DNA from: Gracilibacillus sp. YIM 98692
GTDB lineage: Bacteria; Bacillota; Bacilli; Bacillales; Amphibacillaceae
Length of the DNA: 64,000 bases
Assembly: GCF_010993965.1 (NCBI RefSeq)
Contig: NZ_WIXM01000002.1
Location: forward strand, 310,001-374,000
Direction of reading: 5' to 3'
Under the pieces are notes generated by a model. That model was not told where the DNA came from. It was given only the letters and a program-made list of their open reading frames with translations, and ran no database searches. A program made the position numbers and the translations under genes. This document shows positions 1 to 22,297 of the stretch, one piece after another; the stretch's first letter is position 1; every line of letters begins with the position of its first letter.

Positions 1-555
1 AGCACTCAAGATTTGGCAAATGCAGTGAAAGAAGCTAATGCAGAAAATGTCATCATTTTACCTAATAATAAAAATATTGTGATGGCTGCCGAACAAGCAG
101 CAGAATTAACGGATGACTCAGTAGCTGTTGTCAAGACAAAAACAATACCTCAAGGGATGGCAGCAATGCTTGTTTTTAATCCCGAGGATACAATAGATGA
201 TAATGTTGAAAATATGTCTGCAGCCAGCGATGAGGTGAAAACAGGACAAGTAACCTATGCTGTAAGGGATACACAAATTGATGGAATGACCATTGAAGAA
301 GGTCATTATATGGGACTTGCTGATGGGGAAATAAAAGTAAATGATCCAGATCAAATGATTGTCATTAAGCAGCTACTAACGGAAATGATCAATGATATGG
401 AAGATGAAATTGTGACAATATTGCGAGGAGAAGAATCATCTGATCAAGAAGAGGCGGAAATTATTAAATTCTTAGAGGAAGAGTTTCAGGATTTAGAAGT
501 AGAAGTCCATACTGGCAATCAACCTATTTACTCTTATATATTTTCTATTGAATAA
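1..555 (+). CDS. fakA: fatty acid kinase FakA (YloV), C-terminal part
   Basis: This is the 3' end of a gene that begins before the window; the reading frame is open from base 1, so the first in-window TTG is not a start. About 184 residues remain. In the family, FakA phosphorylates fatty acids bound to FakB/DegV-type carriers, feeding exogenous fatty acids to PlsX/PlsY. The N-terminal DhaL-type ATP-binding domain is missing here, and what remains matches the C-terminal domain (IILPNNKNIVMAAEQAA near the start, then a long acidic stretch). The TAA stop lies inside the first bases of an intergenic repeat. The assignment rests on recognised sequence and on its place upstream of recG, with a lipid operon just beyond. 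Confidence 0.85.
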   Translation, partial: STQDLANAVKEANAENVIILPNNKNIVMAAEQAAELTDDSVAVVKTKTIPQGMAAMLVFNPEDTIDDNVENMSAASDEVKTGQVTYAVRDTQIDGMTIEEGHYMGLADGEIKVNDPDQMIVIKQLLTEMINDMEDEIVTILRGEESSDQEEAEIIKFLEEEFQDLEVEVHTGNQPIYSYIFSIE

Positions 556-709
556 AGAGAGACTTCCATCAGTGTGGGGTTTCTTCATCCCCCACTGATG
601 GTTAGCAAAACTTATCAGTGTGATAGCGTCCGTTATCCTCCCCACTTCTACTTTTTTCATTATTCTAAGTCTTGAAGGGGGCTTACGGACGATTGTAGAT
701 CGTGATAAT
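552..709 (+). repeat. double-hairpin intergenic repeat, copy 1 (full length)
   Basis: One of four copies of the same element (others at 15264-15371, 19909-20043 and 22161-22297). It starts with ATAAAGAGAG and ends near CGTGATAAT. The first hairpin has arms CCATCAGTG and CACTGATGG (around 573-602). The second joins a CCGTTA..CCCCACTTC arm (around 629-648) to GAAGGGGGCTTACGG (673-689), with ATTATTCTAAGTCTTGA in its loop. The fakA stop TAA (553-555) is part of its first bases. Nothing in it looks coding. Its function is unknown; a MITE-like element or a structured RNA/terminator is possible. Confidence 0.85.
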
Positions 710-870
710 ATTTTTTGTAAGAAGGGGCTTTCTCATAAGTTCAGTTTGCGAATTCATACTGATTCAGTAACGTATTCCAGTTGCGTGAACAGTGAGCTTA
801 CTTTTGAGACAGCTCCTTATTTTCGGTTCCATATAAATGTTATAAGGTATGAAAGTGTGAGGTTTTAGAG
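556..870. other. fakA-recG gap (315 bp) without a credible gene
   Basis: The first half is repeat copy 1. The remainder (about 710-870) is A/T-rich and I see no convincing -35/-10 pair or gene. A weak GTGAGG about 8 nt before the recG ATG is the only translation signal. In B. subtilis this position holds sdaAB-sdaAA, which are absent here. Confidence 0.7.
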
Positions 871-2904
871 ATGATATATGACTCTGTTAAAGATATAAAA
901 GGAATAGGCCCGAAAATGGTAGAGCATCTAGCAGATATGGAAATAGAAACCATAGAAGATCTGTTATATTATTTTCCTAATCGCTATGACCATTATGAAC
1001 AAAAACCTTTGCACGACCTAGTTCATGACGACAAAGTTACGATTGTCGGACAAGTACTGCAAGAGCCTCTTGTTCATTATTATAATAAACGAAGATCAAG
1101 GATGATTGTACAATTAAAAGTCGACGGAGCTGTTGTAAAAGGGGTGTTGTTTAATAGAGCTTTTGCTAAAAAGCATTTTCAACCAGGTGAAACTGTTTCG
1201 TTAAACGGTAAGTGGGATCAACATCGCTTGCAAATCACAGTGGATCAGTTTAAAAAGGGAAGTATTGATGCTAAAAGTCCTATTACTCCCATTTACTCAT
1301 TAAAAAGCGACATAAAAAATGTGCAAATGATCAAGTTTTTAAAAGAAGCGTTAACTACATATTTATCTTCTATCAGAGAGATTTTACCAAGTACTTATTT
1401 GCAAGCTTATAAATTGCCATCTATCCACGAAGCGTTACAAGCTATCCATTTTCCGGCATCTTTTAAAGAATTAAAACATGCTAAGAGAAGATTTATTTAT
1501 GAAGAGTTATTAATATTTCAATTTAAATTACAACTTATCCGCAAAAGAAATAGAGAAGCAACGAAAGGAAATAACCAACGATTTAACAAAGATCAAGTAG
1601 ATCAATTAATGCACAGCTTTCCGTTTACTCTAACAGATGCTCAAATGACTTGCCTTAATGACATATTAAAAGACTTGGCATCTCCTTATAGGATGAACCG
1701 GTTATTACAAGGAGATGTAGGATCAGGGAAAACAGCTGTAGCCATTTTAAGTCTTTATGCATCCGTTACTGCAGGTAAACAAGTTGCTTTCATGGTTCCG
1801 ACTGAAATATTAGCAGAGCAGCATGAGGAAACGTTACAGGAATTATTACCAGAGCATGTCATTATAAGAAGGCTAACTGGATCCATAAAAGGGAAAAAAC
1901 GAAAAGAATTTTTAGAAGAAATTTCGACTGGTGAATGTGATGTAGTGGTAGGTACTCATGCACTTATTCAAGATGATGTTCATTTTGCGAATTTAGGATT
2001 TGTAATTATTGATGAACAGCACCGCTTTGGTGTTAATCAACGTAATATATTGAAGGAAAAAGGAATATTGGCTGATGTTTTATTTATGACTGCTACTCCT
2101 ATTCCTAGGACTCTTTCCATTACTACATTTGGGGATATGGATGTATCCAAAATTGATCAAATGCCCCAAGGTAGAAAGCCGGTTGAAACTTATTGGGTAA
2201 AACATAACATGTTAAATAGAGTGTTATCATTTATTTACAAAGAAATTCAACAAGGTTATCAAGCGTATATTATTTGTCCTTTAATTGAAGAATCAGATAA
2301 ATTGGATATACAAAATGCATTAGATCTCTATCATCAATTACAGGAGTTATTACCAGCTCATGTCAAAGCAGGCTTGTTGCATGGACGGTTGCAGGCAGAA
2401 GAAAAAGAAGAAGTAATGGATTCATATGCTAAGAATAAAGTTCAGATTTTAGTTTCTACTACAGTTGTAGAAGTAGGTGTCAATGTACCAAATAGTACGG
2501 TGATGTTAATACAAGATGCGGACAGGTTTGGGCTTTCTCAGTTACACCAATTAAGAGGTCGTGTGGGACGTGGTGATGCACAAAGCTATTGTATTTTAGT
2601 GGCAGATCCTAAAGGAGAAAATGGCAAAGAGAGAATGCGTATTATGACAGAAACAACAGATGGTTTTTTATTAGCGGAAAAAGATTTAGAATTAAGAGGT
2701 CCTGGAGATATGTTTGGAAGCAAGCAAAGTGGATTGCCTGATTTTCGCCTAGCCGATGTTGTTCATGACTATAGAGCACTTGAAATTGCAAGAGCAGATG
2801 CTATCGATATAGTAGAAAATGAAAGATGGAAAGAAAATGATTTTGAAGAGTTAAAACGATATGTAAGTAATAAGTCTTTATTTACAGATGAGCTCTTAAG
2901 TTAA
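871..2904 (+). CDS. recG: ATP-dependent DNA helicase RecG
   Basis: A 677-residue superfamily 2 helicase that reverses stalled replication forks and branch-migrates Holliday junctions. Residues 1-~150 form the wedge/OB region that binds branched DNA (it opens with the helix-hairpin-helix-like DIKGIGPKMVEHL). The helicase core follows: Walker A GDVGSGKT at ~281-288, the DEQH box at 381-384, FMTATPIPRT shortly after, and the C-terminal QLRGRVGRG and ELRGPGDMFGSKQSG motifs typical of RecG. Length is normal for the family. The ATG at 871 is preceded only by a weak GTGAGG. fapR follows after a short promoter-bearing gap, as in B. subtilis. Confidence 0.97.
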   Translation: MIYDSVKDIKGIGPKMVEHLADMEIETIEDLLYYFPNRYDHYEQKPLHDLVHDDKVTIVGQVLQEPLVHYYNKRRSRMIVQLKVDGAVVKGVLFNRAFAKKHFQPGETVSLNGKWDQHRLQITVDQFKKGSIDAKSPITPIYSLKSDIKNVQMIKFLKEALTTYLSSIREILPSTYLQAYKLPSIHEALQAIHFPASFKELKHAKRRFIYEELLIFQFKLQLIRKRNREATKGNNQRFNKDQVDQLMHSFPFTLTDAQMTCLNDILKDLASPYRMNRLLQGDVGSGKTAVAILSLYASVTAGKQVAFMVPTEILAEQHEETLQELLPEHVIIRRLTGSIKGKKRKEFLEEISTGECDVVVGTHALIQDDVHFANLGFVIIDEQHRFGVNQRNILKEKGILADVLFMTATPIPRTLSITTFGDMDVSKIDQMPQGRKPVETYWVKHNMLNRVLSFIYKEIQQGYQAYIICPLIEESDKLDIQNALDLYHQLQELLPAHVKAGLLHGRLQAEEKEEVMDSYAKNKVQILVSTTVVEVGVNVPNSTVMLIQDADRFGLSQLHQLRGRVGRGDAQSYCILVADPKGENGKERMRIMTETTDGFLLAEKDLELRGPGDMFGSKQSGLPDFRLADVVHDYRALEIARADAIDIVENERWKENDFEELKRYVSNKSLFTDELLS

Positions 2905-2911
2905 ACGATAC

Positions 2912-2940
2912 TTGCATATTTTTTAATGGTATTATATATT
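2912..2940 (+). promoter_or_regulatory. sigma-A promoter of the fapR operon
   Basis: TTGCAT (2912-2917) and TATATT (2935-2940) are separated by exactly 17 bases, directly after recG. The FapR operator begins a few bases downstream, so a bound repressor would sit on the transcription start. Confidence 0.75.
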
Positions 2941-2942
2941 AC

Positions 2943-2961
2943 TATTAGTACCTAGTCACAA
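2943..2961 (+). promoter_or_regulatory. FapR operator
   Basis: TATTAGTACCTAGTCACAA closely resembles the known FapR box (core TTAGTACCTA followed by a degenerate inverted half). It lies immediately after the -10 of the fapR promoter, the arrangement by which FapR represses its own lipid operon until malonyl-CoA releases it. Recognition is by eye. Confidence 0.8.
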
Positions 2962-2990
2962 GTGCGGACATGATGGATGGTGGATATTAG

Positions 2991-3566
2991 ATGAAACGAT
3001 CGAAGAAAGACAGACAAGTTTTATTAAAAGAGACCATAGAAGAGAAACCATTTATTACGGATGAGACCCTTGCTCAAATGTTTAGCGTAAGTATCCAGAC
3101 GATACGTTTAGATAGAATGGGGTTAGGTATTCCAGAATTACGTGAAAGAATAAAATCCGTCGCAACTTCCAATTGGAATGAAACGGTAAAAGCTTTACCA
3201 CTAGAAGAAGTGATCGGTGAAATTGTTGATTTAGAACTAGATGAACGGGCTATTTCTATATTAGATATTACGGAAGAACATGTCTTTTCACGTAATAAAA
3301 TAGCAAGAGGTCATCACTTGTTTGCCCAAGCCAATTCGTTAGCAGTAGCTGTAATTAACGATGAATTAGCATTAACTGCGAATGCAAACATCCACTTTAC
3401 CCGTCAAGTAGCTCAAGGAGAAAGAGTTGTTGCGAAAGCGAAAGTTTTAAGAACGGATAAAAGAAAGCGTACTTTAGTAGAAGTACATAGTTATGTAGAA
3501 AATGAGAAAGTTTTTACAGGAACATTTGAAATGTTTCGATCCAACCAAGAGAAGGAAGGGAACTAG
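2991..3566 (+). CDS. fapR: FapR, malonyl-CoA-responsive repressor of lipid synthesis
   Basis: A 191-residue transcription factor that represses fatty-acid and phospholipid genes and is released when malonyl-CoA binds. An N-terminal helix-turn-helix (about residues 18-48, including [21 protein letters not shown]) leads through a linker helix to a C-terminal hot-dog fold effector domain (about 75-185, with [15 protein letters not shown]). It heads its own regulon, two bases before plsX, and carries an operator in its promoter, so autoregulation is expected. The ATG at 2991 follows a modest GGTGG Shine-Dalgarno. Confidence 0.97.
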
Positions 3567-3568
3567 TC

Positions 3569-4573
3569 ATGAGAATCGCAATAGATGCCATGGGTGGTGA
3601 TCATGCCCCTAAAGAAATTGTTCGCGGGGCAATTAAAGCAGTTGATCAGTTTGATCATTTGAAAATTACTTTAATCGGGGATGAAGAAAAAATTCAAAAG
3701 TACTTATCCAACCATCCTTCTATAGAAGTGATTCATACAGATGAAGTTATTTCTAGTAATGATGAACCCGTTAAAGCCGTACGAAAAAAAAAGAATGCTT
3801 CTATGGTGTTAATGGCAAATTACGTTAAAGAAGGGCATGCAGATGCTTGCATTTCTGCTGGAAACACTGGTGCTTTAATGAGCACAGGGCTATTTGTGAT
3901 TGGCAGAATAAAAGGTATTGATCGACCAGCATTAAGCCCTACGTTGCCTACCGTGAATGGGGATGGCTTTTTATTGTTAGATGTAGGGGCAAATGTCGAT
4001 TCTAAGCCACAGCATTTGCAACAATATGGTGTAATGGGATCTATTTATATGGAAAAGGTTCGAAATATTCAACGCCCAAGAGTAGGCTTGCTGAATGTTG
4101 GTACAGAGAATGGAAAAGGGAACGACTTGACTAAAAAAGCTTATGAACTTTTAGAACAATCTCCAATAAACTTTATTGGAAATGTAGAAGCAAGGGATTT
4201 ATTAGATGGAGCAGCAGATGTTGTTGTGACAGATGGTTTTAGTGGGAATGTTGCTTTAAAGACAGTGGAAGGAACAGCTCTTACCCTATTTTCGATGTTA
4301 AAGGACACTTTTATGTCAAATACAAAAACCAAAATAGCTGCTATGCTAGCAAAAAAAGATTTGCGTGGTTTAAAAGATAAATTAGATTATTCAGAATATG
4401 GGGGTGCTGGTCTGTTCGGTTTAAGAGCTCCAGTTATCAAAGCTCACGGTTCATCTAATCAGCAGGCAATATACAGTGCCATTCAACAGGCTGTAAATAT
4501 AGTGGAAACAAATGTAGTTGACAAAATAGCAATGGAAATAAAAGAGTTAGAGGAGAAGAAAGAGGAGGCTTAA
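3569..4573 (+). CDS. plsX: phosphate acyltransferase PlsX
   Basis: A 334-residue soluble enzyme that converts acyl-ACP and phosphate to acyl-phosphate, the donor for PlsY in phosphatidic acid synthesis. The N-terminal signature [18 protein letters not shown] is intact, followed by the conserved [10 protein letters not shown] and [12 protein letters not shown] segments and a C-terminal [19 protein letters not shown]. It sits in the fapR-plsX-fabD-fabG-acpP operon, two bases after fapR, with GAAGGGAAC upstream of its ATG. The upstream fakA product makes acyl-phosphate from exogenous fatty acids, which PlsX interconverts with acyl-ACP. Confidence 0.97.
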
Positions 4574-4576
4574 TCA

Positions 4577-5524
4577 TTGAAAAAATTAGCGTTTATTTAC
4601 CCAGGACAAGGTTCTCAATCTGTTGGTATGGGTAAGGATTTGTATGACCAATTTGATGAAGTTAAGCAGATGTTTGATCAAGCCAATGATCGATTAGCAT
4701 ATGATTTATCGTCCATTATGTTTGATGGGCCTAAGGAAACATTGACAAACACAGAAAATGCTCAGCCAGCATTATTGTTAATGAGTGCTGCTATTACCCA
4801 TCTATTACATAACAAAGGGATAAAACCAGCCGTAACAGCAGGTCATAGCTTAGGAGAATATAGTGCCTTAGTTGCATCTAACTCTATTTCATACTTGGAT
4901 GCAGTATCATTAGTACACGCACGTGGTCAGTTAATGGAAAATGCCTATCCAGAAGGAAAAGGATCTATGGCTGCGGTGTTAGGGATGGATCAGGAAACTT
5001 TAGAAAAAGAATTACAAACTATTTCAAAAGAGCATGATGAAGTAGTGGAGATAGCAAACTTAAATTGCCCAGGCCAAATTGTAATCTCTGGAACAAAATC
5101 AGGTGTAGATATAGCGGTTGATCAGTTGAAAGAAGCAGGAGCTAAACGAGTTTTACCTTTACCAGTTAGTGGACCATTTCATTCTAGCTTGATAAAACCA
5201 GCAGCAAAGGACTTCGAAAACGTGGTTGCAGAGTATAATTGGAAGGATGCTGACATCCCATTATACGCCAATGTAACAGCGGATAAAGTGGAAGATGTGG
5301 ATAATATTAAAGATTTGTTAGTGAAACAGCTGTATTCCCCTGTTCGGTTTGAAGAGATTATTGAGAAACTACTGGAAGAAGATTTAGATGCGATCGTTGA
5401 AATCGGTAATGGTAAAGTGCTTGCAGGACTTGTCAAAAAAGTAAAAAGAAGAGCAAAAGTGTTCTCCGTACAAGATACAGAATCCTTACAAGAGTTTATT
5501 GATTGGGTAAAGGAGGAAGCGTAA
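4577..5524 (+). CDS. fabD: malonyl-CoA:ACP transacylase FabD
   Basis: A 315-residue enzyme that transfers malonyl from CoA to ACP, priming chain elongation in type II fatty acid synthesis. The nucleophile Ser91 lies in GHSLG (89-93) and the partner His202 in GPFHSS; the N-terminal FIYPGQGSQ motif is also typical. The start is TTG at 4577, chosen because AGAGGAGG lies about 7 bases upstream inside the end of plsX and the protein then begins [11 protein letters not shown] like its relatives. The stop overlaps the fabG start (TAATG), indicating translational coupling. Confidence 0.97.
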
Positions 5525-6264
5525 TGTTAGAAGGTAAAGTAGCGTTAGTCACTGGTGGCTCTAGAGGGATTGGAAGAGCAATTGCTTTAACTTATGCTAA
5601 AAATGGAGCGAAAGTTGTTGTAAACTTTGCTGGTAATGAAGAAAAAGCTCAAGCAGTTGTAGATGAAATTAAAGAGCTTGGTTCTGAAGCGATTAAGTAT
5701 AAAGCAAATGTAAGCCAAGAAGATGAAGTAAAAGCAATGGTGAAAGAAACAGTTAAAACGTTTGGCAGTTTAGATATATTAGTGAATAACGCTGGTATTA
5801 CGAGAGACAATCTATTAATGCGTATGACGGAAGCAGATTTTGATGATGTTATTGATACAAACCTTAAAGGTGTATTTCTATGCATCAAAGGGGTGACTCG
5901 ACAAATGATGAAACAACGCAGCGGCCGTATTATTAATGTGTCTTCTGTTGTTGGAATCAGCGGAAATCCAGGACAAGCAAATTATGTTTCCGCAAAAGCT
6001 GGAGTAATTGGCTTAACTAAAACAACAGCGAAAGAATTAGCTGCTCGTGGTATATTAGTTAATGCCATTGCACCAGGTTTTATCGCAACAGATATGACAG
6101 AAGAACTAACAGAAGAGCAAAAAGAACAAATGCTTAGTCTTATTCCTTTAAATAAATTGGGAGAAGCAGAAGATGTAGCAAATGTTGCGTTGTTTTTAGC
6201 TTCTGAACAATCCAACTATGTGACTGGACAAACCATCCAAGTAGATGGTGGAATGGTTATGTAG
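5524..6264 (+). CDS. fabG: 3-oxoacyl-ACP reductase FabG
   Basis: A 246-residue NADPH-dependent short-chain dehydrogenase performing the first reduction of each elongation cycle. The nucleotide-binding GGSRGIGR (about residues 11-18) and NNAG are present, with catalytic Ser141, Tyr154 and Lys158 in the YxxxK arrangement, and the C-terminal [10 protein letters not shown]. The ATG at 5524 overlaps the fabD stop and is preceded by AAGGAGG; a longer frame from 5503 would start inside fabD without a better ribosome site. It is the fourth gene of the fapR operon. Confidence 0.97.
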
Positions 6265-6304
6265 TAATGTATTTGTATACACTTTGAAAGGGGGTGACGG
6301 CAAA

Positions 6305-6538
6305 ATGGCAGATACTTTTGAAAAAGTAAAAGAAATCGTTGTTGATCGTCTGGATGTAGACGAAGATAAAGTAACATTAGAAGCTTCATTTAAAGACGAT
6401 TTAGAAGCAGATTCCTTAGACGTAGTAGAACTTGTAATGGAATTAGAAGACGAGTTTGATATGGAAATTGCAGACGAAGATGCAGAAAAAATTGCTACAG
6501 TAGGTGATGCTGTAAATTACATAAACAGCAACCAGTAA
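6305..6538 (+). CDS. acpP: acyl carrier protein
   Basis: A 77-residue, strongly acidic four-helix carrier. Ser37 in the DSLD motif is the site of 4'-phosphopantetheine attachment. The ATG at 6305 follows GAAAGGGGGTGA, one of the strongest ribosome sites in the operon, as expected for an abundant protein; a longer frame from 6245 begins inside fabG and is not credible. It ends the lipid operon and is followed directly by a hairpin terminator. Confidence 0.98.
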
Positions 6539-6550
6539 TGTGTCTTTTTT

Positions 6551-6590
6551 CAGAAAAGCCTATTTATAGGCTTTTCTGATGTTTAATTTA
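6551..6590 (+). terminator. rho-independent terminator after acpP
   Basis: A perfect 10-bp stem (CAGAAAAGCC / GGCTTTTCTG) with an 8-base loop lies just after the acpP stop. The T-tract after it is weak (ATGTTTAATTT), so partial read-through into rnc is plausible. Confidence 0.7.
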
Positions 6591-6608
6591 CTTTGGTAGG
6601 TGAATAAA

Positions 6609-7295
6609 GTGTCCGATTTTACTTTACTCCAGAAACAATTAGATATTTATTTTCGTGATGAGAAACTGTTACGCCAAGCATTCACCCATTCATCTTATGT
6701 GAATGAGCATAGGAAGAGAAAATTAATGGATAATGAACGTTTAGAGTTTTTAGGAGATGCTGTATTAGAGCTGGGAGTCTCTCAATATTTATTTCGTGAG
6801 TATGCGGATATGGAAGAAGGAGATTTAACTAAGCTCAGAGCATCCATTGTATGTGAACCTGCATTAGTGAAATTTGCAGAATCACTCCATTTTAGTGATT
6901 ATGTGCTCTTAGGAAAAGGCGAAGAAATGACAGGCGGAAGAAATCGGCCTGCGCTATTAGCGGATGTATTTGAAGCATTTATTGGAGCTCTTTATTTAGA
7001 TCAAGGATATGATCAAGTAATCTCTTTCTTAAAAGCTCATGTTTATCCCAAAATTACTACCGGTGCTTTTTCGCATACGATGGATTATAAAAGCCAACTA
7101 CAAGAAACTGTGCAGCAACATAAAAATAAATTAGTAGAATATGAAATTGTAGATGAAAAAGGACCTGCTCATGACCGCGAATTTTCAGCTGTTGTTACCA
7201 TTAATGGAAATGTTGCTGGAAAAGGTATTGGCAGAACGAAAAAAGAAGCAGAACAAAGAGCTGCAAAACAAGCACTAGATGCATTAGTAAAATAA
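6609..7295 (+). CDS. rnc: ribonuclease III
   Basis: A dsRNA endonuclease that processes rRNA precursors and regulatory duplexes. The N-terminal catalytic domain has the signature [14 protein letters not shown] and the second metal-site block [13 protein letters not shown]. The C-terminal ~70 residues are a double-stranded RNA-binding domain ending in [22 protein letters not shown] place the start at GTG 6609 because GGTAGGTG lies about 6 bases upstream; an in-frame GTG at 6600 would add three residues (MNK) but overlaps that ribosome site. A strong terminator follows. In B. subtilis smc is immediately next; here about 0.95 kb intervenes. Confidence 0.95.
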
Positions 7296-7311
7296 TAACA
7301 GGAAGCATACA

Positions 7312-7344
7312 GATACAAGCCAACGGTGGTTTGTATCTTTTTTA
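7312..7344 (+). terminator. rho-independent terminator after rnc
   Basis: GATACAAGCCA pairs with the downstream arm ending TTTGTATC (11 bp including one G-T pair) around a tiny loop, followed by TTTTTTA. It closes the rnc transcript about 17 bases after the stop. Confidence 0.85.
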
Positions 7345-7596
7345 TCAGCTCTATGTTAGGGTATAGACACAATTCGGATGAAAAACTCACCCAATACTCT
7401 TCAAAGGTGGGTGCTTATTCGACGTTGCGGAAAGCGGAGTGTATTTCTGAAGTGTTATTATAGTATAGTATTCATCCAAGATGAAATCAGAAAAGGTCCC
7501 GTTTCATTTATGTCACAGTTTATTTAAATTGATTAATAAGGCGTTATGACGTAAAAATATAATACAATAGCATTCCGTTAACTAATGGGAGGTTTG

Positions 7597-14617: not shown

Positions 14618-14655
14618 TCTTTCTTGTGTGAGACATTAATTTGGAGGTGGAAACA

Positions 14656-14925
14656 ATGGCAGTAAAAATTCGCCTAAAACGTATGGGTTCAAAAAGAAAT
14701 CCATTTTATCGTATCGTAGTGGCAGATTCTCGTTCTCCACGTGATGGACGAATCATCGAACAAATCGGAACATATAACCCGGTTGTAAATCCGGTTGAAG
14801 TGAAATTAGATGAAGATAAAGCACTAGATTGGATGACAAAAGGTGCGAAACCTAGTGATACGGTACGTAACTTATTTTCAAATGAAGGCATCATGACAAA
14901 ATTTCACGATTCTAAAAATCAATAA
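14656..14925 (+). CDS. rpsP: 30S ribosomal protein S16
   Basis: An 89-residue S16 with the canonical start [20 protein letters not shown] and the [11 protein letters not shown] segment. It binds 16S rRNA during early 30S assembly. ATG 14656 follows TTGGAGGTGG; a longer frame from TTG 14641 would begin within that ribosome site. It is cotranscribed with khpA, 17 bases downstream, from its own promoter. Confidence 0.98.
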
Positions 14926-14942
14926 TAAAGTAGTGTGATGAC

Positions 14943-15170
14943 ATGAAAGCCTTAATCGAAACAATTATTGAGCCATTAGTCGATTACCCTGAGTCTATTG
15001 CTATTTCAGAAAGAGAAGAAGAGAACAAGATTGTTTATCATCTTCAAGTGCATGAAGAGGACGTAGGGAAAGTGATTGGCAAAAACGGCCGAATTGCAAA
15101 GTCGATTAGAACAGTTGTTTATGCAGCTGGCATGAAATCAAATAAACGTATCTTTTTAGATATTATGTAA
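14943..15170 (+). CDS. khpA: KH-domain RNA-binding protein KhpA (YlqC)
   Basis: A 75-residue single KH-domain protein with the GxxG-type RNA-binding loop in VIGKNGRIAKSIR (about residues 42-54). In Firmicutes KhpA partners with KhpB/EloR in RNA binding and cell elongation control. The ATG at 14943 has GTGATGAC upstream, a weak site, so translation may be coupled to rpsP. A strong terminator follows, making rpsP-khpA a compact two-gene unit. Confidence 0.93.
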   Translation: MKALIETIIEPLVDYPESIAISEREEENKIVYHLQVHEEDVGKVIGKNGRIAKSIRTVVYAAGMKSNKRIFLDIM

Positions 15171-15210
15171 AAAGAGGGGAGGAATAGATAGCCTTCCCTC
15201 TTTTCGTTTT
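15170..15210 (+). terminator. rho-independent terminator after khpA
   Basis: AAAAGAGGG plus GAGG pairs with CCTTCCCTCTTTT around a nine-base loop and is followed by CGTTTT. It begins at the khpA stop codon itself. Confidence 0.85.
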
Positions 15211-15263
15211 GGTTGTAAAACCTTTGGATTCCATTTATGGATGGTCGTTCATGATAATCTATT

Positions 15264-15371
15264 TTATCATGGTGAACAATTACCCTATGCCCCCCCTTCA
15301 AGACTTAGAATAATAAAAAAAGTAGAAGTGGGGGATGAAGAAAGAACCCACTGATGGAAGTCTCACTTTAT
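15264..15371 (-). repeat. double-hairpin intergenic repeat, copy 2 (internally deleted)
   Basis: Inverse orientation relative to copy 1. It starts at TTATCATGGTGAACAAT and ends at CTTTATAT. Compared with copy 1 it lacks about 48 bases between two CCCCAC boxes, so the 3' arm of the first hairpin is gone and CCCCCAC is joined directly to TTCTAC. The TCTAAGTCTTGAA loop motif is retained (as TTCAAGACTTAGA at 15297-15309). It lies between khpA and ylqD. Just outside its left end is an inverted CATGATAA (15250-15257). Confidence 0.8.
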
Positions 15372-15428
15372 ATTTTTCATAAGATCTGCTATTCTTTTAT
15401 TATAAAAGGGAGAGAAAGGCTGGATTTC

Positions 15429-15815
15429 ATGCAAATCATTCGTAAAGTCGCTGTAAAACAAATTGTGACAGATCAGACAAAAAACAAGTTGCGAGAAGAA
15501 TATGAATGGAAAATATTCCAATTGGAACAAGAGAGTCAGCAGTTGTTATTTGAACAAAAAAAATTAGAGCAGCGTACTTCGAATAAAAAAACGGAAATAG
15601 CCTCAAAATTTAAGAAGAAAATAAACAGTCGAAAGGACCATATCAATTGGTATAAATATAAATTAGAGCAGCTAGACATTCTGCCGATCGGCAGTGAAAT
15701 CCACGATGGAGAAGTCGATGCTATTGTTGAAGTCGAGGAAGGAATGGATTGGGATCAAATGAATCAACAAACTGCGATTGTGATTAGAGATGGAAAAGTA
15801 GATAAAATTACATAA
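15429..15815 (+). CDS. ylqD: YlqD family protein
   Basis: A 128-residue protein of the conserved YlqD family, found beside rimM in Bacilli; its function is unknown. The start MQIIRKVAVKQIVTD is the family's usual N-terminus. The central ~60 residues are a highly charged coiled coil (LEQESQQLLFEQKKLEQR and onward), and the C-terminus is a small beta-rich domain (PIGSEIHDGEVDAIVEVEEG). ATG 15429 follows GGGAGAGAAAGG. An upstream frame to 15354 runs into repeat copy 2 and is not credible. rimM follows after 11 bases. Confidence 0.85.
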   Translation: MQIIRKVAVKQIVTDQTKNKLREEYEWKIFQLEQESQQLLFEQKKLEQRTSNKKTEIASKFKKKINSRKDHINWYKYKLEQLDILPIGSEIHDGEVDAIVEVEEGMDWDQMNQQTAIVIRDGKVDKIT

Positions 15816-15826
15816 TAGGTGATAAC

Positions 15827-16345
15827 ATGACAAAAGATTATTTACGAGTTGGAAAAATTATTAACACACATGGTATAAAAGGAGAAGTAAAAGTTTTACG
15901 GATAACTGATTTTGCAGATCGTTTTGAACCAGGGTCCACTTTGTGGGTTGATAAAAAGCAAAGCAATGAGTTAATAAAAGTAACGGTTGATGGGCACCGA
16001 AGACATAAAGGCTTTGACTTAGTACACTTTCAATCATTAGATAATATAAATGAGGTAGAATCATGGAAAGGTTCAGAGCTGTTAATAAAACGTGAACAAC
16101 TAGAACCTTTGGAGGAAAATGAGTATTATTACCATGAAATTATTGGTTGTCATGTTTACACGACAGAGCCTTTATATGTTGGGAAAGTGATCGAAATATT
16201 AGCCCCTGGTGCAAACGATGTATGGGTTGTGGAAGATGAAAATGGCAGCGAACATCTCATCCCATATATTGAGCCTGTGGTGCAAACAATTGATATAGAA
16301 AAAAGCAACATCATTATTGAACCGATGGAAGGACTTTTGGAGTAA
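15827..16345 (+). CDS. rimM: ribosome maturation factor RimM
   Basis: A 172-residue factor that binds S19 and assists folding of the 16S rRNA 3' domain. The N-terminal beta-barrel opens with [22 protein letters not shown]. The C-terminal PRC-barrel contains [11 protein letters not shown] and the closing [18 protein letters not shown] lies upstream. Its stop overlaps the trmD start (TAATG), so the two are translationally coupled. Confidence 0.97.
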
Positions 16346-17076
16346 TGCGAATTGATATATTATCCTTGTTTCCAGAAATGTTTGAAGGGGTATTTCAATC
16401 CTCTATATTGAAAAAAGCATATGATGCCAATGCTTTTCAATATAATTTTATTAATTTTCGGGATTATACCGATAATAAGCACAATAAGGTGGATGACTAT
16501 CCTTACGGTGGTGGAGCAGGAATGGTGTTAAAGCCGCAACCCATTTTTGATGCAGTTGATCATGTAAAAAAAGATACAAAGACTAAACCGAGGGTAGTTC
16601 TCATGTGCCCTCAAGGAGAAACTTTTACACAAAAGAAAGCAGAAGAGTTAGCAACGGAAGACCATCTTATCTTTATTTGTGGACATTATGAAGGATATGA
16701 TGAAAGAATTAGAACGGAACTAGTCACAGATGAGGTGTCAATTGGAGATTATGTGCTAACTGGTGGTGAGTTAGGAGCTATGGTCGTGATCGATAGTGTT
16801 GTTCGATTATTACCAGGTGTCTTAGGAAATGAAAAATCAGCTGTACAAGACTCTTTTTCGACCGGCTTATTAGAACACCCTCATTATACGAGACCTGCAG
16901 ATTTTAGAGGGTTGAAAGTCCCTGATGTTCTGCTTTCAGGTAATCACGCACATATAGAAGAATGGCGCAAGAAGGAAGCTTTAAAGCGAACCTTCCTTCG
17001 ACGAAGAGATTTACTCCAAGAATTAGAGTTAACGGACCAAGAAAAAGAATGGATCAAAGAATGGAAAAATGACTAG
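16345..17076 (+). CDS. trmD: tRNA (guanine37-N1)-methyltransferase TrmD
   Basis: A 243-residue SPOUT methyltransferase that forms m1G37 in tRNAs and prevents +1 frameshifting. The knot region shows [10 protein letters not shown] and [18 protein letters not shown], with the catalytic-loop region [21 protein letters not shown] after it. The start overlaps the rimM stop by one base. A promoter and leader separate it from rplS. Confidence 0.98.
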
Positions 17077-17082
17077 ATGTAG

Positions 17083-17111
17083 TTGAAATGAAAACAGAAC
17101 TATGCTATATT
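17083..17111 (+). promoter_or_regulatory. sigma-A promoter of rplS
   Basis: TTGAAA (17083-17088) and TATATT (17106-17111) with a 17-base spacer, immediately after trmD. The transcript would begin just upstream of the L19 leader structure. Confidence 0.75.
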
Positions 17112-17118
17112 GATAGTT

Positions 17119-17196
17119 GTGCTTAAGTGAATGCTTAAGGTAAAAAACGATGTTCCGCTATCGTGAAGGCTGGTAAGAGCATTGGTTTGGAAGGGG
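17119..17196 (+). ncRNA. L19 ribosomal protein leader
   Basis: The 5' UTR of rplS has a GCTTAAGT/GCTTAAGG pairing element and then TTCCGCTATCGTGAAGGC and GGTTTGGAA, which I recognise as the conserved core of the Firmicutes L19 leader RNA. The family is thought to let L19 autoregulate its own expression. It starts a few bases after the -10 and ends at the AAGGGGTG ribosome site. A covariance search would settle the boundaries. Confidence 0.75.
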
Positions 17197-17206
17197 TGTA
17201 AGAAGA

Positions 17207-17551
17207 ATGCAGAACATAATCGAAGAAGTAACAAAGGATCAATTACGTACAGATCTTCCAAAATTTCGTGCTGGTGATACTGTAAAAGTGCACGTGAAGG
17301 TTGTGGAAGGTAACCGTGAACGTATTCAGGTATTCCAAGGTGTTGTCATTAAACGCCAAAATGGTGGAATTAGTGAAACATTTACGGTACGTAAACTTTC
17401 TTATGGTGTAGGGGTTGAACGTACATTCCCAGTGCATTCACCACGTATTGATAAAATCGAAGTAACTCGACGTGGTAAAGTTCGTCGTGCGAAGCTTTAC
17501 TATCTACGTAACCTACGTGGTAAAGCTGCTCGTATTAAAGAAATTCGCTAA
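17207..17551 (+). CDS. rplS: 50S ribosomal protein L19
   Basis: A 114-residue L19 with [22 protein letters not shown] and the [17 protein letters not shown] block, ending [12 protein letters not shown]. It sits at the 30S-50S interface. ATG 17207 follows GGAAGGGGTG. It is transcribed alone or with partial read-through, since a clear terminator follows and lepB has its own ribosome site. Confidence 0.98.
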
Positions 17552-17563
17552 TGAAAGAAATGT

Positions 17564-17598
17564 AAAAGGAGCTTGCATCGTCAGGCTCCTTTTTCTTC
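17564..17598 (+). terminator. rho-independent terminator after rplS
   Basis: AAAAGGAGC and GCTCCTTTT form a 9-bp stem with a 12-base loop, followed by TCTTCT. It lies 12 bases after the rplS stop. Confidence 0.85.
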
Positions 17599-17645
17599 TA
17601 TTTAAAATAGTTTTTGGAACCAGGTGAAGAAGGGAAATTATCCAT

Positions 17646-18203
17646 ATGACAAAGAAAAAGAATGATTGGGCAGATTGGATAAAAACGATCATTATAACAG
17701 CTCTGATTATTATCTTACTTCGTATGTTCATTGCTGTTCCTATTGTGGTTGAAGGGCCATCTATGTACCCGACATTAGCAGATAATGAGCGTTTAATAGT
17801 GGATAAATTAAGTTTGACTTTTAGTGATATAAAAAGGTTTGATATTGTTGTATTTCATGCAACAGCACAAAGAGATTATATTAAGAGAGTGATTGGTCTT
17901 CCTGGTGATCAAATTGAGTATATAGACGACCAATTATATGTAAATGGACAAGTAGTTAAAGAATCCTTTCTAGATCAAGCAAAACAAACTTTGGGTAGCA
18001 ATGAAACCTATACAACCAATTTCGATCTATCACATATACCAGGAAATCAGCAAGAGGTTCCAGATGGGCATGTCTTTGTGCTTGGTGATAACAGACCGAA
18101 TTCAACGGACAGCCGACATCTCGGGTTTATTCCAATGGACCAAATAGTTGGTGTTGCCAGATTTACATATTGGCCTATTGGAGAAATAGGGTTTGTTGAT
18201 TAG
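17646..18203 (+). CDS. lepB: type I signal peptidase
   Basis: A 185-residue membrane protease that removes signal peptides from secreted proteins. One N-terminal membrane segment (about residues 13-33, IIITALIIILLRMFIAV) anchors an extracytoplasmic domain. The catalytic Ser39 is in GPSMYPT and the general base Lys80 in YIKRVIGLPGD; the GDNRPNSTDSRHLGF box is present. The size and single anchor are typical of the Bacillus Sip type. It lies between rplS and rbgA, apparently in one unit with rbgA 21 bases downstream. Confidence 0.96.
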   Translation: MTKKKNDWADWIKTIIITALIIILLRMFIAVPIVVEGPSMYPTLADNERLIVDKLSLTFSDIKRFDIVVFHATAQRDYIKRVIGLPGDQIEYIDDQLYVNGQVVKESFLDQAKQTLGSNETYTTNFDLSHIPGNQQEVPDGHVFVLGDNRPNSTDSRHLGFIPMDQIVGVARFTYWPIGEIGFVD

Positions 18204-18224
18204 GGAAGAAAATGAGGTGTTAAA

Positions 18225-19079
18225 ATGACTATTCAGTGGTTTCCAGGACATATGGCAAAAGCACAACGTGAAGTTCAAGAAAAATTAAAATTAGTTGACT
18301 TTGTAATTGAATTAGTGGACGCACGTGCTCCTTTTTCATCACAAAATCCGTTGTTGCAATCTTTGCTTCAACAAAAATCTAAAATGATTGTGTTGATGAA
18401 AGAAGATTTAGCTGATGATAAGGTGACAAAACAATGGTTGTCCTTTTTTACAGAACAAGGGATGACAGCTATTTCAGTAAATGTAAATAATAGAAAAGAT
18501 ATGCAAAATGTCGTACAAACAGCTAAAGACGTAGCTCAAGAAAAAATGGAAAAGCTTAAAAGAAAAGGAATTCGTCCGAGGCCAGCTCGAGCAATGATTA
18601 TTGGAATTCCGAATGTTGGTAAATCCACCCTTATTAATCGTTTAGCGAATAAAAAAGTGGCAAAAACAGGCGATCGTCCTGGTGTAACGAAAAATCAGCA
18701 GTGGATTAAGGTAAAAAAAGAATTTGAATTGTTAGATACTCCAGGCATTTTATGGCCAAAGTTTGAGGATGAATTAGTCGGGTATCGCTTGGCGGCAATA
18801 GGGACTATTAAAGATCAGTTATTACCGATTGAAGATGTGGCTGCTTATATTATTCAATATTTACAGCAACATTATCCTGAGGTTTTAGAAGAGCGTTATG
18901 GAGTTACCGATGATAACAATGATATGCTGGCTATTTTTGAATGGATCGGAAATAAACGAGGTTGCCTTGAATCAGGTGGTAGAATTAATATGGAAAAAAC
19001 CTCGGATGTCATTATTCAAGATTTGCGCAGCGGTAAGCTAGGAAAAGTGACATTGGAAGATCCAAGTGAGATAGATTAA
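18225..19079 (+). CDS. rbgA: ribosome biogenesis GTPase RbgA (YlqF), atypical G4 motif
   Basis: A 284-residue circularly permuted GTPase needed for late 50S assembly. The start MTIQWFPGHMAKA and DARAPFSSQNP are canonical, as are P-loop GIPNVGKST (127-135), GDRPGVTKNQQW and DTPGILWPKFED. The G4 box, NKxD in relatives and normally placed before G1 in this family, reads MKED here (Met58-Lys59-Glu60-Asp61), so the guanine-contacting Asn is missing. The rest of the protein, including the C-terminal ANTAR-like helical domain, looks intact, so I still expect a functional protein. A terminator follows. Confidence 0.95.
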   Translation: MTIQWFPGHMAKAQREVQEKLKLVDFVIELVDARAPFSSQNPLLQSLLQQKSKMIVLMKEDLADDKVTKQWLSFFTEQGMTAISVNVNNRKDMQNVVQTAKDVAQEKMEKLKRKGIRPRPARAMIIGIPNVGKSTLINRLANKKVAKTGDRPGVTKNQQWIKVKKEFELLDTPGILWPKFEDELVGYRLAAIGTIKDQLLPIEDVAAYIIQYLQQHYPEVLEERYGVTDDNNDMLAIFEWIGNKRGCLESGGRINMEKTSDVIIQDLRSGKLGKVTLEDPSEID

Positions 19080-19114
19080 AGACATTCGTCATCATGAATG
19101 TCTTTATTTTTTCG
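19080..19114 (+). terminator. rho-independent terminator after rbgA
   Basis: AGACATTC and GAATGTCT form an 8-bp stem with an 8-base loop, followed by TTATTTTTT, directly after the rbgA stop. Confidence 0.85.
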
Positions 19115-19149
19115 AAAAATCACCGATATATTAGAAAAGAGGGGTCAAA

Positions 19150-19920
19150 GTGGATTATCATTGGACTATTCAACAATTGAAAGATTACATAAAAAATAGA
19201 AACTTGACGGAGAAAGAAATCGAAATATTACGAACAGATCAAAGAAAGGGTGCTCAGAAATTATATAAGCAGTATAAGCAACATCTAATTAAAGAACAAC
19301 AAGCAGTGGAAAAGTTTGAAGAAATGCAGAAATATGAAAATACTCAAAGAAGCCGTGGCAAGGCTTATATAGCTGGTGTTGATGAAGTAGGAAGAGGACC
19401 ACTAGCGGGGCCAGTAGTGGCTGCTGCTGTTATATTACCTCAAACCTTTTTATTAAAAGGCTTAGATGATTCAAAGAAATTGAATAAAAAAAAGCGTGAA
19501 TTATTTTATCAATATATTGTAGAGAATGCACATTGTTATAGTATCGGTGTTGTACCTCCCTATGAAATTGATGAAATGAATATATATCAAGCGACAAAAG
19601 CAGCCATGTATCAAGCCGTTGATAAACTATCGATCAAACCTGATCATGTTCTAATTGATGCAGTAGAATTAGATGATTTAGGGGTAAGCAGCAATGCTAT
19701 AGTAAAAGGTGATCAAAAGAGCATATCAATTGCTGCAGCCAGTATTGTGGCGAAAGTAGCTCGCGATCAAATGATGAGTGAACTACATCAAACATATCCA
19801 GTGTATGAATTTGATCAAAATAGCGGTTATGGAACTAAAAAACATTTGGAGGCACTAAAACAATATGGTGTTACTTCTCACCACCGGCGTAGTTTCTTGA
19901 AATCCGTTTTATCACGGTGA
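19150..19920 (+). CDS. rnhB: ribonuclease HII
   Basis: A 256-residue enzyme that removes ribonucleotides and RNA-DNA hybrids. An N-terminal extension of ~70 charged residues, usual in Bacilli, precedes the catalytic core: GVDEVGRGPLAGPVV with Asp78-Glu79, then LIDAVEL and AAASIVAKVARD. The start is GTG 19150 with AGAGGGG about 6 bases upstream. The last codons and the TGA fall inside the end of repeat copy 3, so the repeat defines this protein's C-terminus (LSR). Confidence 0.96.
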   Translation: MDYHWTIQQLKDYIKNRNLTEKEIEILRTDQRKGAQKLYKQYKQHLIKEQQAVEKFEEMQKYENTQRSRGKAYIAGVDEVGRGPLAGPVVAAAVILPQTFLLKGLDDSKKLNKKKRELFYQYIVENAHCYSIGVVPPYEIDEMNIYQATKAAMYQAVDKLSIKPDHVLIDAVELDDLGVSSNAIVKGDQKSISIAAASIVAKVARDQMMSELHQTYPVYEFDQNSGYGTKKHLEALKQYGVTSHHRRSFLKSVLSR

Positions 19921-20043
19921 ACAATCGTCCGTAAGCCCCCACTTCAAGACTTAGAATAATGAAAGAAGTATTAGTGGGGATACGGAAGTTTTGCTAACCA
20001 TTAGTGGGGATGGAGCCCCCACTGATGGAAGTCTCTCTTTATA
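19909..20043 (-). repeat. double-hairpin intergenic repeat, copy 3
   Basis: Inverse orientation relative to copy 1. It runs from TTATCACGGTGAACAATCG to CTCTCTTTATA and contains the hairpin AGTGGGGG/CCCCACT and the CCATTAGTGGGG/CCCCCACTGATGG hairpin (about 19998-20028). Its first 12 bases encode the last three residues and stop of rnhB. Its end abuts the ylqG ribosome site. On the minus strand it reads almost base for base like copy 1, but without a ~20-base segment around TCAGTGTGATAGCG. Confidence 0.85.
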
Positions 20044-20056
20044 AGGGGGTGGCCTT

Positions 20057-21871
20057 ATGGCCGACATACATCCGTTTATTCCAAAGCAGGCGGCAGCAAA
20101 TGCCAAAGGGGTACAATCGCCCCCTACCTTACAACAAGGTCAAATGCTGTCTGGTAAAGTACTAGAACTTTATCCTAATCAAACAGCAGCTATCCAGCTT
20201 GGCGGGGTTCAAGTAGTTGCTCAACTAGAAACTGCACTCTCATCCAAACAGAACTATATTTTTCAAGTGTTATCTGTCGGAAATGTAATACGGCTAAAGA
20301 AAATAAGTGAAGCACCAAGTCAGAACGGGCAGAAAATAAAACAGCTTTTGCAACAGTTAGGTGTTTCTTCTACTAATCAGTCGAAAGCTTTTTTTCAACA
20401 AATTGTAGAACAAAACATTCCTTTTTCTAAAGCTGACAGCCAGGAGATTGTTTCACTATTAGAACGATTTGGCGGGTCACAAAATCATCGAGAAATTATC
20501 TTATTAATGATGGCGAAACAGCTTCCGTTAAAAGAGGAGGTTTTTCAAAGTTTACAAGCTTTCCAGTCTAACCAGATTGGCCACCAAATGAAAGCATTGC
20601 AACAAATGATAGAACAACAAAGCAGACCAGGAAACTCAAGGCTGCTTTCTTCGATCGAAAATCGATTACATACCTTTACTTCAAGTCCATCAAATGCAAT
20701 ACATAAAGGGAATACACAAGCATTTCAATCATTTTTAATAGATAATAATCAATCTATTTATCAATTAATGCAAAAAATGAACATCATATCGAATCAAACA
20801 TCGCTGGCAAAATTTGAAGAGGCACTGTTGACATGGAGTCATCGAACTAGCAATAGTGATCAAATGCTTTCATTCTCACAAGTGAAAGCCCAGTTACAAG
20901 CAGCACTTCACTCTCAGATTCCGATGAATGCAAATGAACAGCAAGCATTTAAAACCATCATGCCGAAATTTTTACAAGCTTTAGGTGAACAGAGATTAGT
21001 TCATGATATCAAAGCTTCCTTACAAAATAGTTCTATTTTACAAAAGATGGGCTCCGCCTTAACCGATGATGAAGAGAATATGTTACACAGATGGGTAATG
21101 GATTCTAATACCTCTGACCGGGCAAATCGCTCAGCTTATGAACTGTTACATCGAACCTTGCACCACCAATTAACTTCATCTGAGATTACATTAGCTAGAG
21201 ATCTTTTATTTAGAATGAATGATATAGATTCATCCAGTCCGATGTCTATAAAGGAACACTTTTTAAACTTAACAAAACAATTTTTACAAGTGAGTGGGGT
21301 ACAAGACGAAACCCAGTTGAAGAGTCGGATGCCAGAAGGAGAACTTTCGCTAAAGCAGCTGCTAATGCTAGCAGGTCAACAAAGTGATGACCTGCTAGGA
21401 GAACGCATGTTAAAGTTAGTCCAAACTATTACAGGAATGCAATTGAACATGACAAACAGTGACGATGCTATTTCTCAATGGAATATTCAAATTCCTGCGG
21501 ATAAACTAGGGTTACCTAAAGATATACGCATGCAATTTGAAGGTAAACGGAGAGAAAGTGGAACAGAATTAGACCCAAACTATTGCCAGATTCTATTTCA
21601 CCTTGAATTAAATAAGTTAGGAGAAACGATGATAGCAGTTTCTATACAAAAGCGTGTGATTCAAATCACTGTTTATAATGATCAAGCACAAACTAAATCA
21701 TTATTACAAGGCTTTAAGCCCTTATTAAAGGAAAAGCTATCTGAATTAAATTATCAGTTATCAACTGTTACTTGGAAATCTTTAGATCAAAAGGAGACCT
21801 ATACGCAAACGCAACAAAAAAACAATTATAAAATGCCTGTTCCAAGAGAGGGGATTGATTTTCGGGTATGA
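20057..21871 (+). CDS. ylqG: YlqG, protein with FliK-like C-terminal domain
   Basis: A 604-residue protein in the position of B. subtilis ylqG. Residues 1-80 form a beta-rich domain (GQMLSGKVLELYPNQTAAIQLGG). The middle ~350 residues are Gln/Ser-rich, helical and low in complexity. The C-terminal ~90 residues (LELNKLGETMIAVSIQKRVIQITVY, then QTKSLLQGFKPLLKEKLSEL) have the pattern of the FliK hook-length control C-terminal domain. There is no signal peptide. AAGGGGGTGG precedes ATG 20057. Its stop overlaps the ylqH start (ATGA), so the two are coupled. Function is unknown; the FliK resemblance is my inference. Confidence 0.8.
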   Translation: MADIHPFIPKQAAANAKGVQSPPTLQQGQMLSGKVLELYPNQTAAIQLGGVQVVAQLETALSSKQNYIFQVLSVGNVIRLKKISEAPSQNGQKIKQLLQQLGVSSTNQSKAFFQQIVEQNIPFSKADSQEIVSLLERFGGSQNHREIILLMMAKQLPLKEEVFQSLQAFQSNQIGHQMKALQQMIEQQSRPGNSRLLSSIENRLHTFTSSPSNAIHKGNTQAFQSFLIDNNQSIYQLMQKMNIISNQTSLAKFEEALLTWSHRTSNSDQMLSFSQVKAQLQAALHSQIPMNANEQQAFKTIMPKFLQALGEQRLVHDIKASLQNSSILQKMGSALTDDEENMLHRWVMDSNTSDRANRSAYELLHRTLHHQLTSSEITLARDLLFRMNDIDSSSPMSIKEHFLNLTKQFLQVSGVQDETQLKSRMPEGELSLKQLLMLAGQQSDDLLGERMLKLVQTITGMQLNMTNSDDAISQWNIQIPADKLGLPKDIRMQFEGKRRESGTELDPNYCQILFHLELNKLGETMIAVSIQKRVIQITVYNDQAQTKSLLQGFKPLLKEKLSELNYQLSTVTWKSLDQKETYTQTQQKNNYKMPVPREGIDFRV

Positions 21872-22152
21872 CAGAAAAAGATGGTTATCAGAAGAAAGCA
21901 GCTGCTCTTACCTATGATCCAAACCAGGTAGAAGCACCTAAATTAACAGCTAAAGGAAGAGGGTATGTTGCAGAAAGTATTATAGAAAAGGCAAAGGAGA
22001 ACGAAATACCCATTCAATCAGATCCTACCCTTGTCCAATTACTATCGGAATTGAACATCAATGAAACGATTCCAGAAGAGCTTTATCAGGTGGTAGCAGA
22101 AGTATTTGCCTATATCTATCAAATTGACAAAAGTATCGATCAATCCAAATAG
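21868..22152 (+). CDS. ylqH: YlqH, FlhB C-terminal-domain homologue
   Basis: A 94-residue protein that aligns with the cytoplasmic export-switch part of FlhB downstream of the NPTH autocleavage site: AAALTYDPNQVEAPKLTAKGRGYVAE corresponds to FlhB AIAISYDENKADAPYVVAKG, and it ends EVFAYIYQIDK like FlhB EILAYVYRVEK. It has no membrane part and no NPTH, so it resembles a free FlhB-CC fragment. The coupled upstream gene has a FliK-like domain, the natural partner of FlhB-C. A full FlhB is encoded at 47224-48300. Confidence 0.88.
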   Translation: MTEKDGYQKKAAALTYDPNQVEAPKLTAKGRGYVAESIIEKAKENEIPIQSDPTLVQLLSELNINETIPEELYQVVAEVFAYIYQIDKSIDQSK

Positions 22153-22160
22153 TTCTATTA

Positions 22161-22297
22161 TATAAAGAGAGGCTAACTATCAGTGGGGACCACCCACTGA
22201 TGGTTAGCGAAACTTATCAGGGCGCTAGTGTCGTTCTCCCCACTTATCCTTCATTAAATATTAGAGGGTATCTTACGGACTATTGTTCTCCGTGAAA
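22161..22297 (+). repeat. double-hairpin intergenic repeat, copy 4
   Basis: Same orientation as copy 1. It begins TATAAAGAGAGGCTAAC and ends TCTCCGTGAAAA. The first hairpin is extended (CTAAC.ATCAGTGGG pairs with CCCACTGAT.GTTAG). The second half is more diverged from the other copies (TTAGAGGGTATCTTACGGAC). With copy 3 in the opposite orientation it brackets ylqG-ylqH. Because no other terminator is visible, its first hairpin may end the ylqGH transcript. Confidence 0.75.

Follow-up and report, generated by a model that had tools for sequence, protein, structure and literature searches.

Four copies of one element

The window analysed here is a 64-kb stretch of DNA (G000:C12:310001-374000) from the draft genome of Gracilibacillus sp. 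YIM 98692, referred to below as the host genome. Among genes that include recG, rpsP, rimM, rnhB and sucC it carries four copies of one non-coding element of about 157 nt, which has ATAAA at its start and finish (TTTAT on the opposite strand) and two hairpins between (Table 1). The four-copy family is real, not a product of chance, and is largely explained as a mobile repeat of the bcr1 type. All four copies were recovered by a covariance model, R1, built from 34 copies with 157 positions and 44 pairs; the four are among these 34 sequences and their R1 scores are therefore high by construction. The remaining R1 matches in the window had E values of 0.088 or worse, the top three being antisense to copies 1 and 4. 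A blastn search of the host genome with copy 1 alone, in which 40 of 163 candidates were scored, independently gave 41 copies including the query, with 80-100% identity over most of its length, and two short pieces.

The family had been pointed out in an earlier note on this DNA, in which the positions were right and the individual ends were off by 0-2 bases; the common termini, both hairpins and the conserved loop described there are visible in the alignment. The copies had also been called intergenic. They do lie near genes, but copies 1 and 3 abut or slightly overlap them: the open reading frame (ORF) 13-555, the C-terminus of FakA/YloV, ends inside the left ATAAA of copy 1, and the final codons and the stop of rnhB (ORF 19150-19920) come from copy 3.

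In the consensus, ATAAAGWGAGACTT is followed by hairpin 1 (CCATCAGTGGGG/CCCCACTGATGG), then by TTAGCGAAAC, hairpin 2 and a final A. Hairpin 2 is formed by TTATCAGGGTG, CGTCCGTTA and CCCCCACTT, which pair with AAGTGGGGG, TTACGGACG and CACCGTGATAA, and it extends into the right ATAAA. The consensus has no inverted terminal repeats, as the comparison of the left end ATAAAGWGAGACTT with the inverted right end TTTATCACGGTGAA showed. RNAalifold found almost no structure (7 pairs) in the alignment A2, and the folded consensus was used instead. Folding was better than that of dinucleotide shuffles for positions 552-700 (z -3.56) and for two further copies (z -3.10 and -4.63), and no better for copy 2 (z -0.47). 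The Rfam scan gave zero matches overlapping the four copies, at the gathering score or at E≤5. Elsewhere in the window, an L19_leader (RF00556) at 17147-17185 (+), upstream of ORF 17207-17551, scored 35.9 bits against a gathering score of 36.

Table 1. Features of the four window copies, and elements at other loci that bear the Bacillaceae-1 RNA (RF01690)
Feature	Position	Strand	Description	Basis
Copy 1	552..709	+	full length, 158 nt; from FakA/YloV gene end to recG; R1 148.9 bits	
Copy 1, left ATAAA	552..556	+	contains TAA, the stop codon of ORF 13-555	sequence, ORF list
Copy 1, hairpin 1	566..601	+	CCATCAGTG.../...CACTGATGG	sequence, fold
Copy 1, unpaired TTAG 3' of hairpin 1	602..605	+	conserved across genera; CTAA 5' of the hairpin on the opposite strand	sequence
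Copy 1, hairpin 2	612..708	+	includes ATTATTCTAAGTCTTGA loop region	sequence, model alignment
Copy 1, right end	705..709	+	ATAAT, 1 base different from ATAAA	sequence
Copy 2	15263..15371	-	internal deletion, hairpin 1 mostly gone; rpsP-rimM gap; R1 56.5 bits	
Copy 3	19908..20042	-	inter-hairpin stretch missing; overlaps rnhB 3' end; R1 99.8 bits	
Copy 4	22162..22299	+	from FlhB-like gene to sucC; no counterpart in 16 other genus genomes; R1 101.1 bits	
RF01690-bearing element, L209	7655-7931			
RF01690-bearing element, L192	1058-1276			
RF01690-bearing element, L148	4231-4447			
RF01690-bearing element, L140	4142-4458			
RF01690-bearing element, L160	3002-3213			
RF01690-bearing element, L160	4903-5197			
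RF01690-bearing element, L202	1519-1789			

Spread, decay and movement of the element

In the host genome (4.37 Mb), R1 gave 106 matches at E≤0.001, with 150 of 1478 candidates scored; 105 of them reach both ends of the model, and internal deletions are common among the weaker matches. The genome-wide count that the earlier note had proposed as a check yielded far more than a handful of copies, with shared boundaries. ATAAA starts 77 of the 106 matches and ends 69, and outside these edges there is no consensus except a T at position -1 (57% of 72 copies). Among 73 copies above 80 bits, both ends are ATAAA in 46, while 8 deviate on the left only, 11 on the right only and 8 on both sides, and none of these other 27 carries an identical non-ATAAA pentamer at its two ends. 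Such an absence of matching pentamers is expected from a fixed target and not from duplication of a random one.

The gene context of 92 copies with at least 50 bits was taken from simple in-house ORF calls. Co-directional genes flank 51 copies (31 oriented along the genes, 20 opposed to them), 21 lie in divergent and 10 in convergent gaps, 9 overlap an ORF end and one is at a locus edge; the median distance was 43 bp from a gene 3' end and 68 bp from a gene start. The 68 copies above 100 bits show a mean pairwise identity of 73% (maximum 92%) and a median of 84% to the consensus.

The element is not confined to the host genome. The blastn search with copy 1 had matches in 27 of 61 relatives; R1 was positive in 15 of the 17 genomes of the genus, with 2 to 115 copies each, and, at 7 candidates scored per genome, in 38 of 398 sampled genomes of Bacilli (21 of 145 genera). 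Named genomes contain the right end as an exact 26-nt match in at least 120 stretches, from at least 18 genera, which include Domibacillus, Psychrobacillus, Sporosarcina, Priestia, Cytobacillus, Peribacillus and Lysinibacillus. The Klebsiella grimontii plasmid CP079755.1 (221561-221652, locus L257) also has part of the element near restriction-type genes, covering 63% of the query at 83.8% identity, which may reflect transfer or contamination.

The paired positions behave differently across genera and within the host genome. Across genera (92 matches at 80 named loci, 15 genera), double changes occur in 39 of the 44 pairs, and 222 double-change cells compare with 66.9 in shuffles, in an alignment that was fitted to R1 itself, which favours covariation. 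Within the host genome, pairing is retained in 90.4% of the pair cells, compared with 89.1% for shuffles, and double changes affect 12 of the 44 pairs; the copies there are mostly in neutral decay. The structure was therefore important for the spreading lineages and not for every copy at rest. The unpaired TTAG 3' of hairpin 1 persists in 54 of 66 rows (15 genera) and in 29 of 33 in the host genome, while the stems vary.

Upstream of sucC, where 1.5 kb on each side of the gene were searched, an element is present in one of the 17 genus genomes, that of the host. The same gap in several genus relatives (L261, L264, L265, L269, L275) holds other long GC-rich inserts, e.g. agactccagcgggaacagcgtcttc, so that the site evidently tolerates insertions. 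Both L160 copies of Psychrobacillus lasiicapitis are missing from the aligned DNA of Psychrobacillus sp. NEAU-3TGS (G446), and the first empty site reads acaagcga-ATAAA-attttcttt, with a single ATAAA in place of the two at the occupied site, of which the second may be the element's own, as unlike pentamers never match. Genome G016 has a tandem pair of adjacent copies whose overlap is exactly five bases, one common ATAAA. At a provirus-edge locus an exact empty site was not found, the 27 sequences inspected there being occupied or internally deleted. The earlier note's suggestion of an element like a miniature inverted-repeat transposable element (MITE) thus holds as regards mobility, for which the 106 matches, the sharp ATAAA edges, the empty site and the tandem sharing speak, but not as regards inverted terminal repeats.

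Some relatives are enlarged. The Bacillaceae-1 RNA was found within the hairpin 1 loop or in the stretch separating the two hairpins, in either orientation, at 6 of 11 scanned loci (Table 1); the loops of this module (AGGAC, AGGAT) may resemble CsrA-type or Shine-Dalgarno-like motifs. G446 contains at least 10 relatives of the longer L160 copy (84-86% identity) and four of the shorter one (91-93%), and such composite elements have therefore spread as whole units. A different inter-hairpin insert (CCCGTTCTAGTGTCGCTAATA...) was seen on two unrelated contigs, in L155 (6749-7013) and L337 (near 1051-1076), and a copy in L120 (1501-1712) has an insert of about 60 nt in the loop of hairpin 1 and adjoins a group II intron.

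Orientation, transposase search and competing explanations

In three single-contig genomes (G015, G002 and G010) the listed copies seemed to be arranged by strand along the chromosome. The replichores of each were assigned from 20 spaced samples of 8 kb, in which GC skew and the strand of the genes were read. Among the best-scoring copies of all those found, the ATAAAG strand runs against the replication fork in 25 of 29 (114 found) in G015, 12 of 14 (85) in G002 and 13 of 19 (31) in G010. For G015 and G002 the proportion was 42 of 50 copies with known flanks, nine extra copies being included and four antisense weaker R1 matches, four duplicates and two G002 copies with unfetched flanks set aside; it was 10 of 11 between head-on genes and 14 of 17 between co-directional genes. 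The motifs TTTAT and ATAAA are about equally frequent outside ORFs on the relevant strand (101/103, 93/114 and 139/147). In G015 and G002 the orientation is set by replication and not by the neighbouring genes, and it places the 5'-TTTAT...TTTAT-3' strand on the template of the lagging strand, which is also what has been stated for the IS200/IS605 insertion sequences.

A Y1 transposase gene (PF01797), the expected partner of such an element, was found in 49 of the 61 relatives and in all 15 of the high-copy named genomes, in many hosts as proteins with long open frames (about 180-310 codons) that we judged to be RAYT-like. Sixty Y1 loci, the top-ranking ones among many more matches in the relatives and the high-copy named genomes, were fetched, and none has a copy on both sides, other partners being possible. 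Loci L432 and L434 have a copy or remnant on one side only, and one-sided copies or remnants at L376, L449, L435 and L447 were read and judged to be chance neighbours. A longer autonomous version was sought as well: in 258 locus records, the spacing of a left and a right end is 202-344 nt for 41 listed pairs, and those that were read hold extra hairpin modules. Four end pairs are 968-3117 nt apart (L108, L216 twice, L173), of which those of L216 and L173 were rejected, as ordinary genes or separate copies lie between the ends.

Our best explanation, held with about even confidence, is that the family is a non-autonomous mobile element of the bcr1 kind that moves as single-stranded DNA, the single-strand part being suggested by the orientation in the two genomes. 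The active strand would read, from 5' to 3', TTTAT, hairpin 2, hairpin 1 and TTTAT, with the element boundaries after each TTTAT; it would be excised from, and inserted 3' of, a TTTAT in the lagging-strand template, and the hairpins may serve as recognition structures, as in IS200/IS605 elements. The transposase would be supplied in trans. It seems to have been lost in the host genome, and the window copies would then be decaying relics.

A number of results weigh against this explanation. No Y1 match was found in the host genome (5 of 14 control genomes were positive), nor in G002 with its 85 copies or G010 with its 31, and across the genus the copy number does not rise with the number of Y1 genes (Spearman -0.42, p 0.10, n=17). 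The transposase with matching ends that the earlier note had proposed to look for did not appear: none of the 60 best-match Y1 loci is framed by element ends. The orientation pattern was noticed before it was tested, copies within one genome are not fully independent, and in other sets the bias is weak or absent. By local skew, 55 of 92 copies in the host genome run against the fork (p 0.08; 53-55 with other skew windows at no skew limit), the proportion being 24 of 35 for the best-preserved third of the copies, with 18 of 35 and 22 of 36 for the other two. The named loci, with repeats of one junction excluded, gave 79 of 138 (p 0.11) and, at a skew of at least 0.03, 78 of 130 (p 0.03), with no significance at higher limits; by genus, the count was 18 of 20 in Domibacillus and 14 of 32 in Bacillus. 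Genome G198 has 5 of 9 against the fork and G120 has 2 of 4, two copies at the replichore boundary being left out of the latter, and all sets except G015, G002 and G010 together have 141 of 243 (p 0.015). Moreover, the second empty site of G446 is 1 base off (TTTTC against the expected TTTATC), and in the host genome the tetranucleotides flanking the two hairpins differ (TTAG and ATTG).

The missing Y1 partner and the sets without bias would suit a bcr1-type element that moves by site-specific recombination of double-stranded DNA at TTTAT, or through some other transposase whose target is fixed, the replication-linked orientation in two genomes having come from later selection or chance. We hold this to be possible but less likely; such a mechanism offers no reason for the strong bias in G015 and G002, which is independent of gene direction and target frequency. 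An ordinary inverted-repeat MITE of a DDE insertion sequence, with a 5-bp target duplication, would also be short, non-coding, high in copy number and bordered by apparent 5-bp direct repeats; we hold it to be very improbable, given that ATAAAGWGAGACTT and TTTATCACGGTGAA are not inverted repeats and that the repeat is nearly always ATAAA, with no other matching pair in the copies above 80 bits. If the element belonged instead to the REP/BIME-like repeats of a RAYT (TnpA_REP) transposase, the RAYT-like proteins of many hosts would be natural partners; the host genome has no such gene, however, and the fetched RAYT-like loci have no adjoining copy, which leaves this origin hardly credible.

Two functional explanations, the first built on the structured RNA and the second on the mobile terminator named in the earlier note, were considered. 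A structured regulatory RNA kept at each locus for its function would agree with the stable hairpins, the strong covariation across genera, the Bacillaceae-1 modules inside some relatives and the transcription of bcr copies in B. cereus of which a passage in PMC3446304 speaks. The positions are not conserved, however (the sucC site is occupied in 1 of 17 genomes), deleted copies are common, and the copies of the host genome decay with little compensation, pairs being kept almost as in shuffles; a conserved regulatory RNA is improbable for the copies as such, despite the cross-genus covariation. Still less can be said for a mobile transcription terminator, or a stabiliser of mRNA 3' ends, that is favoured by selection where genes end, and we give it almost no weight: copies lie near genes, at the short median distance from 3' ends given above, and several end genes, but no terminator-like site was called on any of the four window copies, gene starts are equally often nearby, divergent places outnumber convergent ones by 21 to 10, and the orientation in G015 and G002 follows replication and not transcription.

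Comparison with bcr1 and other known systems

The bcr1 repeat of the Bacillus cereus group, reportedly treated by Okstad in 2004 and by Kristoffersen in 2011, bears TTTAT at each end. Passages in the literature give its length as 147 or 167 bp (PMC2267715), link its mobility to TTTAT and report its distribution as restricted to the B. cereus group (PMC6542083), and describe it as MITE-like and often located in untranslated regions (PMC3446304). The window family resembles it in length (about 150-170 bp), high copy number, proximity to genes, the TTTAT motif and the MITE-like character, and thus agrees with it in size, copy number and TTTAT; it differs in the consensus of both stems and, as a matter of distribution and not of anatomy, in its occurrence in a lineage and relatives that lie outside the B. 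cereus group, with at least 18 named genera. What we take to be the left end of bcr1 occurs exactly in 26 provirus stretches, and a 158-nt copy found through it (L338:536-693) matches R1 with 66.2 bits (E 1.8e-13). A heterocycloanthracin/sonorensin-family gene 0.2 kb from this copy suggests a B. cereus-group host. The possible homology with bcr1 rests on this presumed left end and presumed host. BclA_C was tried as a marker for genomes of the group and rejected, the family not being specific; the phage and plasmid collections gave no B. cereus-group match, and the open-licence literature searched named no bcr1-like repeats outside the group.

The window family is bcr1-like and probably of one superfamily with bcr1. 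The earlier note, which did not recognise the family, had named identity to an already described family as a refutation, and this applies in part: Rfam has no corresponding family, but the element is bcr1-like. It is tempting to speculate, though we remain rather doubtful, that bcr1, so far regarded as peculiar to the B. cereus group and marked by a TTTAT without explanation, forms a single branch of a Bacilli-wide superfamily. The host range is new, as are a clean empty site found outside the B. cereus group, an orientation that is linked to replication in two genomes, and the Bacillaceae-1 cargo elsewhere. If the explanation is true, a repeat thought to mark one species group would be the footprint of a mobile superfamily across the relatives of Bacillus, the TTTAT mark would gain a testable mechanism in replication-coupled single-strand transposition, and the Bacillaceae-1 RNA family would be, at least partly, cargo of such elements. 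If only the kinship with bcr1 stands, intergenic hairpins that lacked an explanation in many genomes would still receive a name and a model to search with.

The Bacillaceae-1 RNA itself occurs as a module within related elements and not in the window copies; it is a separate hairpin unit, not the element. A palindrome-associated transposable element (PATE), as defined in a passage of PMC3119063, is, like the window element, mobile, too short to code, free of inverted terminal repeats and provided with palindromes near both ends. The window element may work like a PATE of IS200/IS605 elements and is a candidate for one. It differs in its longer hairpins, hairpin 2 extending into the right end, and in that the defining IS605-type partner with shared ends was not found among the 60 Y1 loci.

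The window element has no internal tnpA or tnpB, and its host genome has no Y1 match, in which it differs from the IS200/IS605 elements proper. For these, passages of the sources state that orientation follows replication (PMC5371812), that the transposed strand is the lagging-strand template (PMC5371812, PMC6006769) and that a guide tetranucleotide stands 5' of the foot of the hairpins (PMC6006769); members of the related IStron group are described as inserting after TTGAT, ATTAT or TTTAT (PMC4227781). The window family shares with IS608 and ISDra2 a fixed T-rich target, subterminal hairpins and, in G015 and G002, a replication-linked orientation, and at the position of the guide tetranucleotide of hairpin 1 it keeps CTAA.

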